Assembly (NCBI GenBank): GCA_016278265.1
Contig: JADQCE010000001.1
Span: forward strand, 124,001 to 188,000
Direction: 5' to 3'
Origin: Halothiobacillus sp.
GTDB taxonomy: Bacteria; Pseudomonadota; Gammaproteobacteria; Halothiobacillales; Halothiobacillaceae
DNA length: 64,000 nucleotides
How positions within the stretch are numbered: position 1 is the first letter of the stretch; each line of letters begins with the position of its first letter. Below are positions 42,003 to 47,789 of this stretch, piece by piece. The notes beneath the pieces are model-generated. The model was given only the letters and a program-made list of their open reading frames with translations, ran no database searches and was not told the DNA's origin. Both the position numbers and the translations under genes were made by a program.

Positions 42003-44027
42003 ATGTTCCGATTCCGTGTTCCCGCTCCTGCTCGTGTTTTCGTCCGTGGCCCCACGAAGGTGCCAGCTCTTTTGTTGGCGCTCGTGCTGCCGCTTGCTCC
42101 GGCGCTGAGCGCCGCCAACGAGCCAAAAGGCACCATGGGCGTCGCGTTGGACGACGAACTGGAGATGGCCCTCGAGGCGATCGAGCGTGGTGATCGCTAC
42201 GGCCTGGACAGGGCGCTGGCGCGCTTTGAAGGCACCCGGCACGGCAAACAGGTAATACCCTACCTGGAAGTGCAGTGGTTGCTAGACCGGGTCGGCGAGG
42301 CGCCGTCAGCCGTGGCTGCCCGGTTGCGAGAGCACCCCGATATCCCGTTGATGCCACGACTCAAGCGGCGATACCTGGATCACCTGGCCGATACCGAGGC
42401 GTGGGGCGAGTACCGGCTGGTCTTCGACCGTGCCCCCGAAATCAACCCGGGGGTCCGACGCCAATGTGCCTATTGGCAGGCCGAGCTGGTGCTTGATGGC
42501 ACCTTGAGCGAGGAGCAGAGCGACGCCGCGTTGGCGGTGTGGGAGCGCGGTCGCAGCCAGCCGGAGGCCTGTGACCCGGCCTTCGACTGGCTCGATGCCA
42601 ATGGGTATCTCGACGAGTCGGCCTATCGGGCGCGCGTGCGCGCCGCCGTTGAAGCGAGCCAGGATGGGCTGGCGCGTTATCTCGTTCGCCAGGGACCGAC
42701 CGGGCTGGCCGCCTACCGGGACCGTTGGCAGTCCTTGCGTGATCGACCGGCCGCGGCCGTCCCGGCCCTGATCGAGGCCGAGGGGGATGCCGAGGAGATC
42801 ACCCAGGGATTGCTCTGGCTGGCCAAGCGCGAACCGGCGCGTGCCCGTGAGTGGGTGGCGCGTGCCGCATCCCAGGAGCTGATCGATGCCGAGCAGGCTG
42901 GCAGCGTGTCCCGGCTTGCCGCGCTCAAGGCCGCCTATCTCTACCAGCCTCAGGGGCACAAATGGCTGACGGAGGTGCCGCTGGCCGCCCGAGACGAGGA
43001 GGTCTGGACCTGGACCGTGCGTTCGGCCTTGCGGCACCTGGACTGGTCACGCGTCAAGACGTCGATCGATGCCATGCCCGACGAATTGACCGAGCGGCGC
43101 GAATGGCGCTACTGGCGGGCCGTCGCCGACGATCATCTGGGGCAGTCGACCGCCGCGCGTACGGTCTGGCGCGAGCTGGCCACGACACCCGATTATCACG
43201 GCTTTCTGGCCGCGGACCGGCTCGGTATTGCCTATCCCCTGCCCGCGGATCAAGGCGAGCCGCCGACGCCATCGGACGAGGCCGTGGCGACGTTGGCCAA
43301 CAACCCCTGGCTGTCGCTCGCCTTTGCCCTGCATCGGCTCGATCGCCCCGAGGACGCCCGTCGCCTGTTCAATCACGAGATCGACGGGTTGGACGACGAT
43401 GTCCTGCCGGCACTTGCCTATCTCGCCGACCAGGCCGACTGGCCCGACCGGGCCTCGGTGGTGATCGCGCGCATGGACAAGCTGCACGATCCGGCGTGGT
43501 ACGCCACCCGCTTTGCCCTGCCGCACCGGGCACTCGTGGAGGCTCAGGCCGAACGACAAGGCGTGCCGGCCGAATGGATCTACTCGATCATGCGCCGCGA
43601 AAGCCTGTTCATGCGCGACATCGGTTCCGGTGCCGGCGCGCAGGGCCTGATGCAGTTGATGCCGGCGACCGCGCGCTGGATCAATCGACAGGCCGCACTG
43701 GGAGTGTCGCCTAGGCAGCTGGCAGACCCTGGCACCAATGTCGCGCTGGGCACCGCCTACATCGGGCACATGGCCGAACGATTCGACGGCCAGTACCCGC
43801 TGGCCACCGCGGCCTACAATGCCGGTCCGGGGCGCATCCAGGGATGGCTGCCCGAGGTGCCGTTGCCCGGTGATGTCTGGGTCGACACGATCCTGTTCGA
43901 CGAGACGCGCGCCTATGCCCAGGCGGTGCTGGCGGGCATGGTGACCTACCGCTGGCGATTGACCGGCGAGCCGCGTCGCTTGGGCGAGTTGCTGTCGGTG
44001 GTCACGCCCGGCGATGACCGGGAATGA
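42003..44027 (+). CDS. slt: Soluble lytic murein transglycosylase (Slt family)
   Basis: Periplasmic enzyme cleaving peptidoglycan glycan strands to 1,6-anhydro products. 674 residues: signal peptide (about 20-38, LSAAN), a long helical superhelix (about 45-500) typical of Slt70, and a C-terminal catalytic domain with the glutamate in SIMRRESLFMRDIGSGAGA, then QGLMQLMPATARW and ATAAYNAGPGRI. Length and order match Slt70. The TG codon context upstream shows no strong ribosome site. sbcB follows 54 bases downstream. Confidence 0.93.
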   Translation: MFRFRVPAPARVFVRGPTKVPALLLALVLPLAPALSAANEPKGTMGVALDDELEMALEAIERGDRYGLDRALARFEGTRHGKQVIPYLEVQWLLDRVGEAPSAVAARLREHPDIPLMPRLKRRYLDHLADTEAWGEYRLVFDRAPEINPGVRRQCAYWQAELVLDGTLSEEQSDAALAVWERGRSQPEACDPAFDWLDANGYLDESAYRARVRAAVEASQDGLARYLVRQGPTGLAAYRDRWQSLRDRPAAAVPALIEAEGDAEEITQGLLWLAKREPARAREWVARAASQELIDAEQAGSVSRLAALKAAYLYQPQGHKWLTEVPLAARDEEVWTWTVRSALRHLDWSRVKTSIDAMPDELTERREWRYWRAVADDHLGQSTAARTVWRELATTPDYHGFLAADRLGIAYPLPADQGEPPTPSDEAVATLANNPWLSLAFALHRLDRPEDARRLFNHEIDGLDDDVLPALAYLADQADWPDRASVVIARMDKLHDPAWYATRFALPHRALVEAQAERQGVPAEWIYSIMRRESLFMRDIGSGAGAQGLMQLMPATARWINRQAALGVSPRQLADPGTNVALGTAYIGHMAERFDGQYPLATAAYNAGPGRIQGWLPEVPLPGDVWVDTILFDETRAYAQAVLAGMVTYRWRLTGEPRRLGELLSVVTPGDDRE

Positions 44028-44081: not shown

Positions 44082-45632
44082 TTGTCTGTTGCCACCACGC
44101 CACCGAGCTTCCTGTTTTTCGACCTGGAGACCACCGGTGCCGAGCCGGTCTTCGACCGCCCGCTGCAGTTCGCGGCCATCCGTACCGACATGGCGCTCGA
44201 GCCGATCGGCGAGCCGGTGGTCTGGTACGCGCGTCCCCCCGAGGATTGCCTGGCGCACCCGGCGGCGGTAATGACCACCGGCCTGCTGCCCGATGACCCA
44301 GTGCTGGCCGGGGCCGACAGCGAGGCGAACCTGGCCAATCGCATTCACCGACTGGTGAGCCAACCGAACACCTGCGTGGTGGGGTTCAACAACCTGCGCT
44401 TCGATGCCCCGATGTTGCGGTTTCTGTTCTGGCGCAACCTGCTCGACCCCTATCGTCACGAATGGGCCGACGGCAACAGCCGTTTCGACGTGCTGGACGC
44501 CGCGCGCGCCTACCGGCTGCTGGCACCCGATGCACTCAATTGGCCGGTCGGTAGTGACGGTCGGCCGACCTTGCGGTTGACCGAACTGTCGGCAGCCAAC
44601 GGGCTGACGCACGAGAACGCGCACGACGCGCTCAGTGATGTCGAGGCCACCATCGATTTGGCGTGCGCCCTGCGCAAGTCCGACCCGGCGCTCTGGGAGC
44701 GTCTGCTCGCGGCCAGGGACAAGCGCGAGGTTGCTCGGGTGGTCGACCAGCCCGATCACGCCGCGTTCCTGCACGTCTCGCCACGGCTGCCGGCGCGGGT
44801 GGCCTCGGCATCGATGTTCTCCTCCTTCGGTCAGGTCGACGCCAATCGCAATCGGCGCGAATGTTGGGACCTGCGCTTCGACCCATTGCCCTGGCTGGAT
44901 CTGGATGCCGAGCAGTGGGCCGAGCGTCGCTTCCTGAAGAACCCGCCGATCGATGCCGAACGTGACTGGGACGACCTGCGCCTGCCGATCAAGTCGATTC
45001 ACCTCAACCGGGTGCCGGTCGTCCTGCCCGCCGAGACGCTTGAGCGAGACGGGGTGGCCCAGCGCATGGTCATCGATCGCGCGCGGATCGACGAGCATGC
45101 CGAGTCGTTCCGACGTCACTTCGATGCCTTGCGCGAACGCCTGATCGGGGCGTTGGCGCAGACCGAGGGCGATTTCCCGCCCCGGCCGGCCGAGCAAGCG
45201 CTCTACGCGGGCTTCGTGCCCAATGCCGACCGGCGCCATCTCGAGGACTGGTGGGGGCGCGCGCGGAGCCTGCGGTCGCGGCAGGACGCGATCAGCCATG
45301 CACGGGACCTGCTTGCCTGGTCGTTCGAGGATCCGCGCCTGCCGGACCTGGTGGAGGGCTTTGTCGCCCGCAATTTGCCCGAGGCACTGGATGCGGCCTC
45401 CGGGGAACGATGGCGGACCCGTCTGGCCGATCAATTGCGGCCCGGGCAGCGTGCCGGGCAGTCCGAAGGGGCGGATGTCGGGGCAGCGCGCGACTTTCCC
45501 TCGCTGTTCGCAGAGGTCGAACGTCTGGCCGACGACGATCACTGGTCGCCCGAGCAACGGGCGTTGCTGGGTCCGTATCGGCGCTGGCTCGAGGAGCGCG
45601 AGCGCGCGGTGGCCAACGGCGTTGGTAATTGA
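44082..45632 (+). CDS. sbcB: Exodeoxyribonuclease I
   Basis: Single-strand DNA 3'-5' exonuclease of mismatch repair and recombination. 516 residues. DEDD exonuclease motifs: FFDLETTGAEP near residue 12, VGFNNLRFDAPMLR, and ENAHDALSDVEATIDLA; the SH3-like and C-terminal domains follow, with KNPPIDAERDW-type segments typical of ExoI. The best start is TTG 44082, nine bases after GGAG; no in-frame ATG lies before the first motif. An unusual start codon for this set of genes. Confidence 0.93.
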   Translation: MSVATTPPSFLFFDLETTGAEPVFDRPLQFAAIRTDMALEPIGEPVVWYARPPEDCLAHPAAVMTTGLLPDDPVLAGADSEANLANRIHRLVSQPNTCVVGFNNLRFDAPMLRFLFWRNLLDPYRHEWADGNSRFDVLDAARAYRLLAPDALNWPVGSDGRPTLRLTELSAANGLTHENAHDALSDVEATIDLACALRKSDPALWERLLAARDKREVARVVDQPDHAAFLHVSPRLPARVASASMFSSFGQVDANRNRRECWDLRFDPLPWLDLDAEQWAERRFLKNPPIDAERDWDDLRLPIKSIHLNRVPVVLPAETLERDGVAQRMVIDRARIDEHAESFRRHFDALRERLIGALAQTEGDFPPRPAEQALYAGFVPNADRRHLEDWWGRARSLRSRQDAISHARDLLAWSFEDPRLPDLVEGFVARNLPEALDAASGERWRTRLADQLRPGQRAGQSEGADVGAARDFPSLFAEVERLADDDHWSPEQRALLGPYRRWLEERERAVANGVGN

Positions 45633-45683
45633 TTCACCGCTTCCCTGACAGCCACCAAGCAGCGGTAATTCAGATACTTGCGC

Positions 45684-45710
45684 TCAAGTGAGCGGACGGT
45701 AGGCCGATAA
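45684..45710 (+). promoter_or_regulatory. Sigma-28 (FliA) type promoter of the CBS-domain gene
   Basis: TCAA (45684-45687), exactly 15 bases, then GCCGATAA (45703-45710), a perfect match to the sigma-28 -10 and a good -35 (TCAAGTGA; consensus TAAAGTTT). The start point would be near 45717, about 20 bases before the CDS start. A sigma-70 promoter here is not obvious. Confidence 0.7.
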
Positions 45711-45737
45711 CGCTAGAGGGAACACGAGGAATCGAGC

Positions 45738-46376
45738 ATGAGCTTTACGGTCTTTGGTCGCGGGGTCAGCGACGGGGTGACGATCGACGAGGCGACGTCA
45801 CCCGGTCTGCTGCGCCCGCCGATGATGGTCGAGCCGCCGCCGGCGGTCCGCGAGGACCAGGCCGGTACGCCGTTCGCGCTGGATCGTGATGCTCGCGCCC
45901 CCCGGGATGATTCGCTGCGTGCCTATCGAGAGGCCGCCGGGCAGGTCAATCGGGAGCCGACGCCGGTGTCGGTGGCCGAGCAAATCATGTCGCGGCCGGT
46001 ACTCACCATCCGCATCAATGACACCGTGGGCCGGGCGCGTGACCTGATGGCAGAGCGGCGCATTGGCCTGTTGCCGGTTCTGGGGGAGGACGGCCGCATT
46101 GAGGCGGTCATCACCCGGGGCGATATCACGCGCCAACGGATTCGCTACTCGGACCTGGCCAAGATGCCGGTGGGGGCGATCGCCCGCTTCGAGGTGCTGA
46201 CGGCCGGTCCCCAGACCAACGTCCGCGAACTGGCCCGGGTGCTACTCGAGCAGGACATTCGTGGCATGCCGATCGTCGACCAGGCCGAGGACCCGCCCCG
46301 GGTCGTCGGCGTGGTGACGCGCAGCGACATCCTGCGCACCTTGATCAACTACGCGTCGCTCGAGCTCTGGCTCTAG
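45738..46376 (+). CDS. CBS-domain pair protein
   Basis: 212 residues. The first 75 residues are hydrophilic and look disordered. Two CBS domains follow: about 78-130 (AEQIMSRPVLTIRINDTVGRARDLM, RIGLLPVLGEDG) and about 148-205 (ARFEVLTAGPQTNVRELARVL, IRGMPIVD, GVVTRSDILRTL). CBS pairs bind adenosyl nucleotides or second messengers and regulate partners; none is fused here. Because the promoter is of the sigma-28 type, a link to motility or chemotaxis is likely but unproven. Ribosome site AGGAATCG. Confidence 0.85.
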   Translation: MSFTVFGRGVSDGVTIDEATSPGLLRPPMMVEPPPAVREDQAGTPFALDRDARAPRDDSLRAYREAAGQVNREPTPVSVAEQIMSRPVLTIRINDTVGRARDLMAERRIGLLPVLGEDGRIEAVITRGDITRQRIRYSDLAKMPVGAIARFEVLTAGPQTNVRELARVLLEQDIRGMPIVDQAEDPPRVVGVVTRSDILRTLINYASLELWL

Positions 46377-46394
46377 CCCCGTTCTGGCAGGGGT

Positions 46395-46823
46395 TCAGGT
46401 GGTCGGCGTCGTGCCTAGGCGTTGCGCCAGTTCGCAGCTGTCGGTGTAGGCATCGCGCATCAGGTTGAAGCAGGTGGCCAGGAACAGGCTCTGCAGTTCA
46501 ACGAACTCGTCAAAGGATTCCCGCTCGGCCTGTTGGCCACCTTCGGCGCTGGTGAGCAGCGTGTCGGCGGACTTGTGCATCTGCACGTGCAGTTGGTGGA
46601 CCTTGTTGAATTCGCCCTGACGTCCCGGCGGGGCGCCGTGGCTTTCCAGAAAGCGGCCGAAACGGCATTCATGCTCGCTCAGCGCCGGCCGCGGCGTGCC
46701 ATACAACAGCACCGCCATGATTCGTGAGTACCAGTCAAAGTGCCAGTAGGTAACTTCCTCGAAGCCGTCGATAAAGGCCTGGTAGTCGAACGGATCCGGT
46801 AGGTTAGGGGACGATGCACTCAT
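46395..46823 (-). CDS. Stand-alone CZB (chemoreceptor zinc-binding) domain protein
   Basis: 142 residues matching the CZB pattern: a histidine in YWHFDWYSRI (H28), the cysteine motif HECRFGRFLESHGAP (C53), and HQLHVQMHKSA (H79, H83), together the 3His/1Cys zinc site. CZB domains normally end chemoreceptors or diguanylate cyclases and sense zinc or oxidants such as HOCl; here the domain is alone. Convergent with the CBS gene, 18 bases apart. ATG 46823 is preferred; GTG 46835 is also in frame. Confidence 0.75.
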   Translation of the reverse strand: MSASSPNLPDPFDYQAFIDGFEEVTYWHFDWYSRIMAVLLYGTPRPALSEHECRFGRFLESHGAPPGRQGEFNKVHQLHVQMHKSADTLLTSAEGGQQAERESFDEFVELQSLFLATCFNLMRDAYTDSCELAQRLGTTPTT

Positions 46824-46878
46824 GAGTGATTTCACTTGCGGTGTGGGGCGTGTGGATGAGTCTAGGCGATTTCATTTT

Positions 46879-46932
46879 GCCCTGACGGGTGAATTCGACC
46901 ATTCGACCATGACGAGTTGATGTCGTCAGGGC
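46879..46932. repeat. Long inverted repeat with tandem octamer in its loop
   Basis: Nine-base arms GCCCTGACG / CGTCAGGGC around a 36-base loop that holds a tandem ATTCGACC-ATTCGACC. It lies between the phosphatase stop and the CZB gene start; there is no T run. Confidence 0.5.
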
Positions 46933-46949
46933 GGTATCGAATGCGGCGT

Positions 46950-47705
46950 CTAGCTGTCCAACAGTCCGGCCAGATAATGTAGATCGACCACGCCGTTATC
47001 GGGGGCGGGCCCGGCAAGCGTCTCGGCGGGTGCGCCCGGCTCGCCCAGCTGCGAGAGCACGGCAATCGCCCCGTCGAAATCGTCCCCGGCGGTATAGTCG
47101 TTGATGGTGACCAGTACCGGGATGGCGGCGGCGCAGGCCGAGCGCACCCCGTTCGCCGAGTCCTCGAGGGCAATGGTTTCACTGGGGGCCAGGTCCATCT
47201 TATCGAGCGTCCAGGTGTAGATGTCTGGCGCGGGCTTTTTCTTTGGGACGATGTCGCCGGCGGCGATCACCTCGAACCAGTCAGGGCTGTCATCGCCCAG
47301 CGTGGCGCGCAACAGGCCGGTCACGTTTTCCGGCGTGGTGGTCGTGGTGATGGCCAGGCGCATGCCGGCATCGCGGGCCTCGTCGATCAGTCGCTTTACC
47401 CCGGGGCGCAGCGGGATCTCGCCACGCTGCAAGAGCTCGAGATAATGCGCCGTCTTGGCCTTATGCAGCCCGGCGATCCAGCCGGCGAGGTCATCAACGG
47501 CTGGCAGCGTGGGGGCATGGGTGTCGATGAAGTGCCGGATGCGCTCCTTGCCGCCGGTGACGGACAGCAGCTCGCCGTAGGTGGGGATGTCCCAGTGCCA
47601 GTCCAGCCCGGCCTCGCGGAAGGCGAGGTTGAAGGCGACGCGGTGACCGTCGCGTTCGGTGTCGGCCAAGGTGCCGTCGACGTCGAAAAGAATCGCTTGC
47701 AGCAT
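46950..47705 (-). CDS. cbbY: CbbY-like HAD family phosphatase
   Basis: HAD hydrolase, 251 residues. Motifs: FDVDGTLADTERDGHR (nucleophile aspartates), ITTTTTPENV, and DIVPKKKPAPDIYTWTL with EDSANGVRSA. The long cap helix region and the KPAPDIY motif resemble CbbY, the phosphatase that removes xylulose-1,5-bisphosphate, an inhibitor of Rubisco. That role fits an autotroph, but no cbb genes are near and related beta-phosphoglucomutase-type enzymes look similar. ATG 47705 used. Confidence 0.75.
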   Translation of the reverse strand: MLQAILFDVDGTLADTERDGHRVAFNLAFREAGLDWHWDIPTYGELLSVTGGKERIRHFIDTHAPTLPAVDDLAGWIAGLHKAKTAHYLELLQRGEIPLRPGVKRLIDEARDAGMRLAITTTTTPENVTGLLRATLGDDSPDWFEVIAAGDIVPKKKPAPDIYTWTLDKMDLAPSETIALEDSANGVRSACAAAIPVLVTINDYTAGDDFDGAIAVLSQLGEPGAPAETLAGPAPDNGVVDLHYLAGLLDS

Positions 47706-47789
47706 GCGGGGTTCCACTTTGGTTACCATTGGGCCCGTTCCCGGAACGGGGGCATGGATCATGTATCAAAACGAACGAGAGTCTACTCA

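Follow-up and report, generated by a model that had tools for sequence, protein, structure and literature searches.

FliA (sigma-28) directs transcription from promoters with a -35 element TAAA or TCAA, a spacer of 15-16 bases, and a -10 element GCCGATAA upstream of the start codon. Besides structural flagellar genes, its targets include YcgR and YhjH, which tune motility by a nucleotide through PilZ or EAL domains and c-di-GMP. In the 64,000-nucleotide stretch of DNA analyzed here (the window), a site with the same -35 (TMAA), 15-base spacing, and -10 as the FliA class 3 promoters precedes a gene for a CBS-domain protein. In contrast to those promoters, the site would drive a gene lying away from the flagellar clusters, and in contrast to YcgR and YhjH, the product is a CBS protein with adenine nucleotides as putative ligands, rather than a PilZ or EAL protein acting with c-di-GMP. 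Among the literature matches listed, which for the most part did not include subscription papers, we found none describing a CBS gene under FliA control.

The closest known counterparts of the product are AcuB and other stand-alone CBS-pair (Bateman) proteins, with which it shares the tandem CBS pair and its predicted fold. It differs from them in its N-terminal hairpin motif, its linker, and its LELW tail, as well as in the four identified neighbors of its gene, which are slt-like, sbcB, CZB, and cbbY genes. The convergent CZB protein has in common with the CZB domain of DgcZ the 3His/1Cys ligands and a tryptophan three residues after the first histidine; unlike DgcZ, it carries no GGDEF or other output domain detectable by Pfam, and its gene follows cbbY. 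Proteins consisting of CZB only make up 27.1% of the 10,140 CZB sequences in a published survey, some of them perhaps incomplete (PMC8262984), and thus this architecture is already known. The features of the locus are as follows.

42003..44027, + strand, soluble lytic transglycosylase-like gene (slt), with an SLT domain and NCBIfam matches below the curated cut-offs
44082..45632, + strand, exonuclease I gene (sbcB), the conserved upstream neighbor of the CBS gene; PRK11779 at 394.6 bits, cut-off 260
45684..45687, + strand, predicted FliA (sigma-28) -35 element TCAA, read from the sequence; TCAA in 8/10 and TTAA in 2/10 (G007, G008) Guyparkeria orthologues
45703..45710, + strand, predicted FliA -10 element GCCGATAA, 15 bases after TCAA; identical in 9/10 Guyparkeria orthologues, GCCGATAC in one
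45738..46376, + strand, CBS-domain protein gene, 212 aa (Pfam, family alignment, AlphaFold model)
45738..45794, + strand, N-terminal motif M[ST]FxV[FY]GxG of most aligned members, within residues 1-19; predicted beta hairpin and short helix
45978..46133, + strand, first CBS domain, residues 81-132 (Pfam)
46173..46349, + strand, second CBS domain, about residues 146-204; two Pfam stretches, limits judged from the alignment and model
46359..46373, + strand, C-terminal tail LELWL; L208, E209, and W211 invariant in 23/23 aligned sequences
46395..46823, - strand, stand-alone CZB protein gene, 142 aa (Pfam), with zinc ligands H28, C53, H79, and H83; outside the putative FliA unit
46950..47762, - strand, CbbY-type HAD phosphatase gene (CbbY 4uar, E 1.1e-57), upstream of the CZB gene on the same strand

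FliA-type sites in the genome and across the family

The whole element, TCAA-N15-GCCGATAA, occupies positions 45684-45710 and agrees with the FliA consensus in its -35, spacing, -10, and downstream start codon. An element with perfect spacing and a perfect -10 at this place had been claimed from the sequence alone, and the reading was accurate; its closeness to the CBS start was also correct, although the distance to the ATG at 45738 is 27 bases rather than the 28 given. A consensus scan of positions 45560-46960 found neither a sigma-70 promoter nor a terminator. A dyad, ACTTG-N4-CAAGT (45676-45689), overlaps the -35 element and may be an operator; by eye, several though not all Guyparkeria genomes show it, with 3-4 bases between its arms.

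The original prediction called for FliA to be encoded in the genome, and its gene lies ~43 kb downstream of the CBS gene, at C10:213011-213667, with a score of 257 bits that exceeds the cut-off. The window itself yielded no match at E <= 1e-5 in a tblastn search with 44 E. coli flagellar and chemotaxis proteins, in line with the earlier statement that it holds no such genes. The first flagellar match past the window is fliM at contig position 203169, ~15 kb beyond the window end and ~33 kb from the CBS gene.

A search of the 2.73-Mb genome of origin for TMAA-N15-GCCGATAA gave seven matches compared to none for the reversed control, and over 11 Guyparkeria genomes the counts were 43 and 1. Thirteen of the 43 are two recurring non-promoter sites (nine inside cheZ and four opposite an ORF), leaving 30 compared to 1. 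In the genome of origin, the exact motif precedes flgK (between flgJ and flgK), the flagellin gene fliC, an MCP gene, the CBS gene, and a Usp-family gene; of the remaining two matches, one lies inside cheZ and the other opposite a 367-aa ORF. Since five of the seven are in a promoter-like position and two are not, an exact match alone is no proof of function. Leaving the CBS gene aside, three of the five promoter-placed sites precede motility genes, and thus, as the genome-wide check proposed with the original prediction had anticipated, such sites mark flgK, flagellin, and chemoreceptor genes.

Three of these matches deserve a separate mention. The MCP gene behind the perfect FliA-type site at G000:C10:71724-71750 is interrupted at codon 50 by an in-frame stop and thus may be a recent pseudogene or reflect an assembly error. 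The Usp-family gene (Pfam E 4.8e-13) has a perfect TCAA-N15-GCCGATAA upstream at G000:C6:916686-916712 and is possibly an unusual FliA target. The perfect motif inside cheZ (G000:C10:214584-214610) recurs in 9/11 genomes of the genus, which probably reflects coding conservation, with an internal promoter being possible.

The source genome groups with Guyparkeria (Halothiobacillaceae); seven named relatives, recorded as Guyparkeria, Halothiobacillus, or Halothiobacillaceae, were found at 73-96% protein identity. A full-length CBS gene is present in 10/11 Guyparkeria genomes, and a FliA-type site precedes it in 10/10, a count that omits the 64% complete G003, where a partial diverged CBS fragment without a site lies at a contig end. 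The -35 and -10 elements are 15 bases apart in seven orthologues and 16 in three (G004, G005, and G010). Mean pairwise identity among the 10 genomes is 0.97 in the -10 octamer compared to 0.34 in the 11 preceding spacer bases. In the two genomes with the TTAA variant, the site lies 30 bases further upstream, and in G002, where a longer gap separates the CBS gene from sbcB, the site keeps its place before the former. FliA scored above cut-off in 9/11 Guyparkeria genomes; the drafts G006 and G010 have the site but gave partial FliA matches only, and no FlhA match was found in G003 and G006.

A scan with a hand-made matrix and 200 mononucleotide shuffles per sequence scored the site at p <= 0.01 in 10/10 Guyparkeria CBS genes and detected no FliA site (p > 0.05) before any of 10 CBS genes from other Halothiobacillaceae, a set that omits G019, G021, G024, and one of two G025 copies as truncated or duplicate. 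The presence of the site in 10/10 genomes despite near-random spacer identity makes it very probable, as far as sequence comparison can tell, that the CBS gene is under FliA control in Guyparkeria. The proposed check for conservation in close relatives thus came out positive within the genus and negative in the rest of the family scanned (0/10), so FliA control is seen within the family only in Guyparkeria. Outside this genus, sbcB and the CBS gene share 4 bases at their junction in 5/8 mapped loci (G011, G013, G017, G022, and G025), and the gaps in the other three (G014, G015, and G020) are 24-54 bases; the overlap together with the missing site suggests that FliA control is not ancestral there.

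Predicted fold of the CBS protein and co-occurrence of its family with flagella

Pfam recognizes two CBS domains in the 212-aa protein (E 1.5e-22). The AlphaFold model has a mean pLDDT of 73.9; the CBS pair is modeled with confidence, the linker (residues 33-74) has low confidence, and block means for the N-terminal hairpin are 70-79. In Foldseek searches with this model, the 14 best matches were AcuB chains, many of them with AMP, ADP, ATP, or Ap4A; the best one (E 3.5e-11, ~126 columns) covers the CBS pair only. All 20 NCBIfam matches of the protein fell below cut-off, and no AcuB-named model was among them. The modeled fold suggests that the protein probably binds adenine nucleotides, as AcuB does, and the sequence conservation of the N-terminal hairpin and the LELW tail suggests that they are probably partner-docking elements.

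By its aligned sequences, the protein belongs to an as yet unnamed family whose two termini are conserved. We searched a class sample of 369 genomes with a profile built from 23 CBS proteins and a cut-off of E <= 1e-31, chosen after the list was inspected, generic CBS matches beginning at 1e-29. Family matches were obtained in 21 genomes outside Guyparkeria, 16 over essentially the whole profile and five partial, and members occur under 14 family labels. FlhA, called at E <= 1e-50, is present in 20/21 carriers compared to 176/344 other genomes (one-sided Fisher p 2.7e-5, kinship ignored) and in 16/16 full-length carriers. Compared to genomes with only generic CBS matches (96/137), the enrichment is smaller (p 0.009, kinship ignored). 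In the phylum sample (398 genomes), FlhA is present in 21/22 carriers and 299/375 others, a borderline difference (p 0.050, kinship ignored); 15/22 of these carriers share one family label (f207), and five are partial matches in longer frames. The Fisher tests omit four Guyparkeria rows in the class sample and one in the phylum sample. Many FlhA-bearing f207 genomes have no family member, and thus presence of the family is patchy.

FliA-like sites at p < 0.05 precede 5/20 distant members and 5/21 further ones, leaving 31/41 scanned without a site at this threshold. The scan of the first 20 omits G237, where the match starts inside the gene, and used a start one codon late for G069 and G253; the scan of the further 21 omits the five partial phylum-sample matches. 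An identical site in G438 and G588 scored p 0.040 and 0.075, respectively. Several rows of the further-member scan are close relatives, which makes the combined p values optimistic. Membership of the CBS gene in flagellar clusters by position was considered and rejected: a cluster was found in only 1/23 stretches around distant members, several of which are short contigs. The exception is the G237 contig, where the C-terminal part of a family member ends a flhB-flhA-fliA-che cluster, in an order sampled with only 12 genomes. In G115, an MCP gene lies directly downstream of the family member.

A link between the CBS gene and flagella can be examined in genus g3 of the Halothiobacillaceae, where both a FlhA match and an above-cut-off FliA are absent in 4/5 genomes (G012, G016, G018, and G020). 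Three of these (G012, G016, and G018) have no CBS gene between sbcB and the CZB gene, and a search at E <= 1e-3 did not detect one elsewhere; a single event probably accounts for all three absences. G020 keeps a diverged CBS gene, and the flagellated G014 keeps CBS as well.

The CZB gene and alternative readings of the locus

Pfam identified CZB as the only domain of the 142-aa protein (E 6.5e-10, run on a 146-aa frame with a longer start), confirming the description of this convergent neighbor as a CZB domain and nothing else. All four ligands are invariant in 13/13 aligned rows including DgcZ, and the 3His/1Cys zinc site is thus kept. A search of solved structures with the single CZB sequence gave no match at E <= 1, and a profile search found DgcZ, which is itself part of that profile. 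No CbbY-named NCBIfam model was among the matches listed for the adjacent phosphatase gene.

The order sbcB-CBS facing CZB-cbbY is kept in 10/10 Guyparkeria genomes with a full-length CBS gene and likewise in G011, G014, and G020 from two other genera. In genus g4, which is probably Halothiobacillus, CBS is likewise preceded by sbcB and CZB by cbbY, with the two blocks at different places. The CZB gene lies behind a CbbY-like phosphatase gene in 20/20 genomes mapped; six further CZB-bearing g4 genomes are outside the map. The conserved units are therefore best read as sbcB-CBS and cbbY-CZB, which abut in three genera and are apart in a fourth. The CZB-cbbY adjacency (46395-47762; also at L128-L131 and L134) may point to a connection of redox state or zinc with the Calvin cycle. 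In G001, G009, and G010, cbbY and CZB are separated by additional, similar-looking intergenic DNA that is absent from the window; a TAGACT/TAAACT-like element, seen by eye, recurs before CZB.

This arrangement bears on the other half of the original prediction, in which the CBS and CZB proteins may act together as a pair of sensors with motility as their output. Their convergent placement in all Guyparkeria with a full-length CBS gene and in the three genomes of other genera, as well as the retained zinc ligands, would fit such a pair. However, the two genes are at separate loci in g4, CZB is constantly associated with cbbY, and no FliA-type site was found before CZB in the 26 genomes scanned, the genome of origin included (best 9/12 positions). 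Moreover, CZB is kept in four genomes without flhA and fliA, three of which have no CBS gene. Synteny, regulation, and loss pattern thus disagree with a functional pair, and the check for its conservation at homologous loci turned out negative; we rejected this reading as very improbable. The original prediction accordingly survives in its FliA-promoter half and fails in its sensing-pair half. A chance or relic origin of the promoter-like sequence has hardly any probability either, for while two of the genome's seven exact matches fall within an ORF or opposite one, the site before the CBS gene is conserved across 10 genomes with diverged spacers and has shifted position in two.

The CBS protein could also regulate metabolism or DNA repair in a general way, in association with sbcB, the Guyparkeria FliA promoter having been added as the gap widened, with no motility role. 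Adjacency to sbcB in all four genera, with overlaps or short gaps outside Guyparkeria, is consistent with this scenario, as are the absence of a FliA site from the 10 other Halothiobacillaceae CBS genes scanned and the CBS gene of G020, retained without flhA and fliA. On the other hand, sbcB is kept in the three g3 genomes where CBS is absent, no exonuclease I-like neighbor was recognized beside distant members in ORF listings read by eye, and FlhA accompanies nearly all class-sample carriers of the family. We consider this scenario unlikely, at roughly one chance in four.

Proposed role of the CBS protein

The explanation that we favor, with somewhat better than even confidence, is that the CBS protein, produced under FliA control, senses adenine nucleotides and tunes motility. 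The CBS gene of Guyparkeria would belong to the late flagellar genes, those of class 3 that depend on FliA. Once FliA is active, RNA polymerase with FliA would read TCAA-N15-GCCGATAA and produce a CBS transcript that begins with a short leader. The product would be soluble, consist of a Bateman module with conserved ends, and probably bind adenine nucleotides as AcuB does. Its hairpin and LELW tail would probably dock onto a partner, such that motility or chemotaxis output follows the energy status of the cell, and the neighboring CZB gene would form a separate unit with cbbY. Taken by itself, a motility role of the CBS protein, suggested by regulation, co-occurrence, and fold, stands at slightly short of even chances. 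A wider proposal, that the whole family serves the flagellum as a dedicated accessory, sensing adenine nucleotides and adjusting motor or chemotaxis output to energy charge, with FliA control acquired repeatedly, is tentative and rather doubtful.

If the favored explanation is true, a nucleotide sensor would be joined to the flagellar regulon in sulfur-oxidizing autotrophs and other swimmers, and a defined protein family would be at hand for testing how cells fit costly motility to their energy supply.
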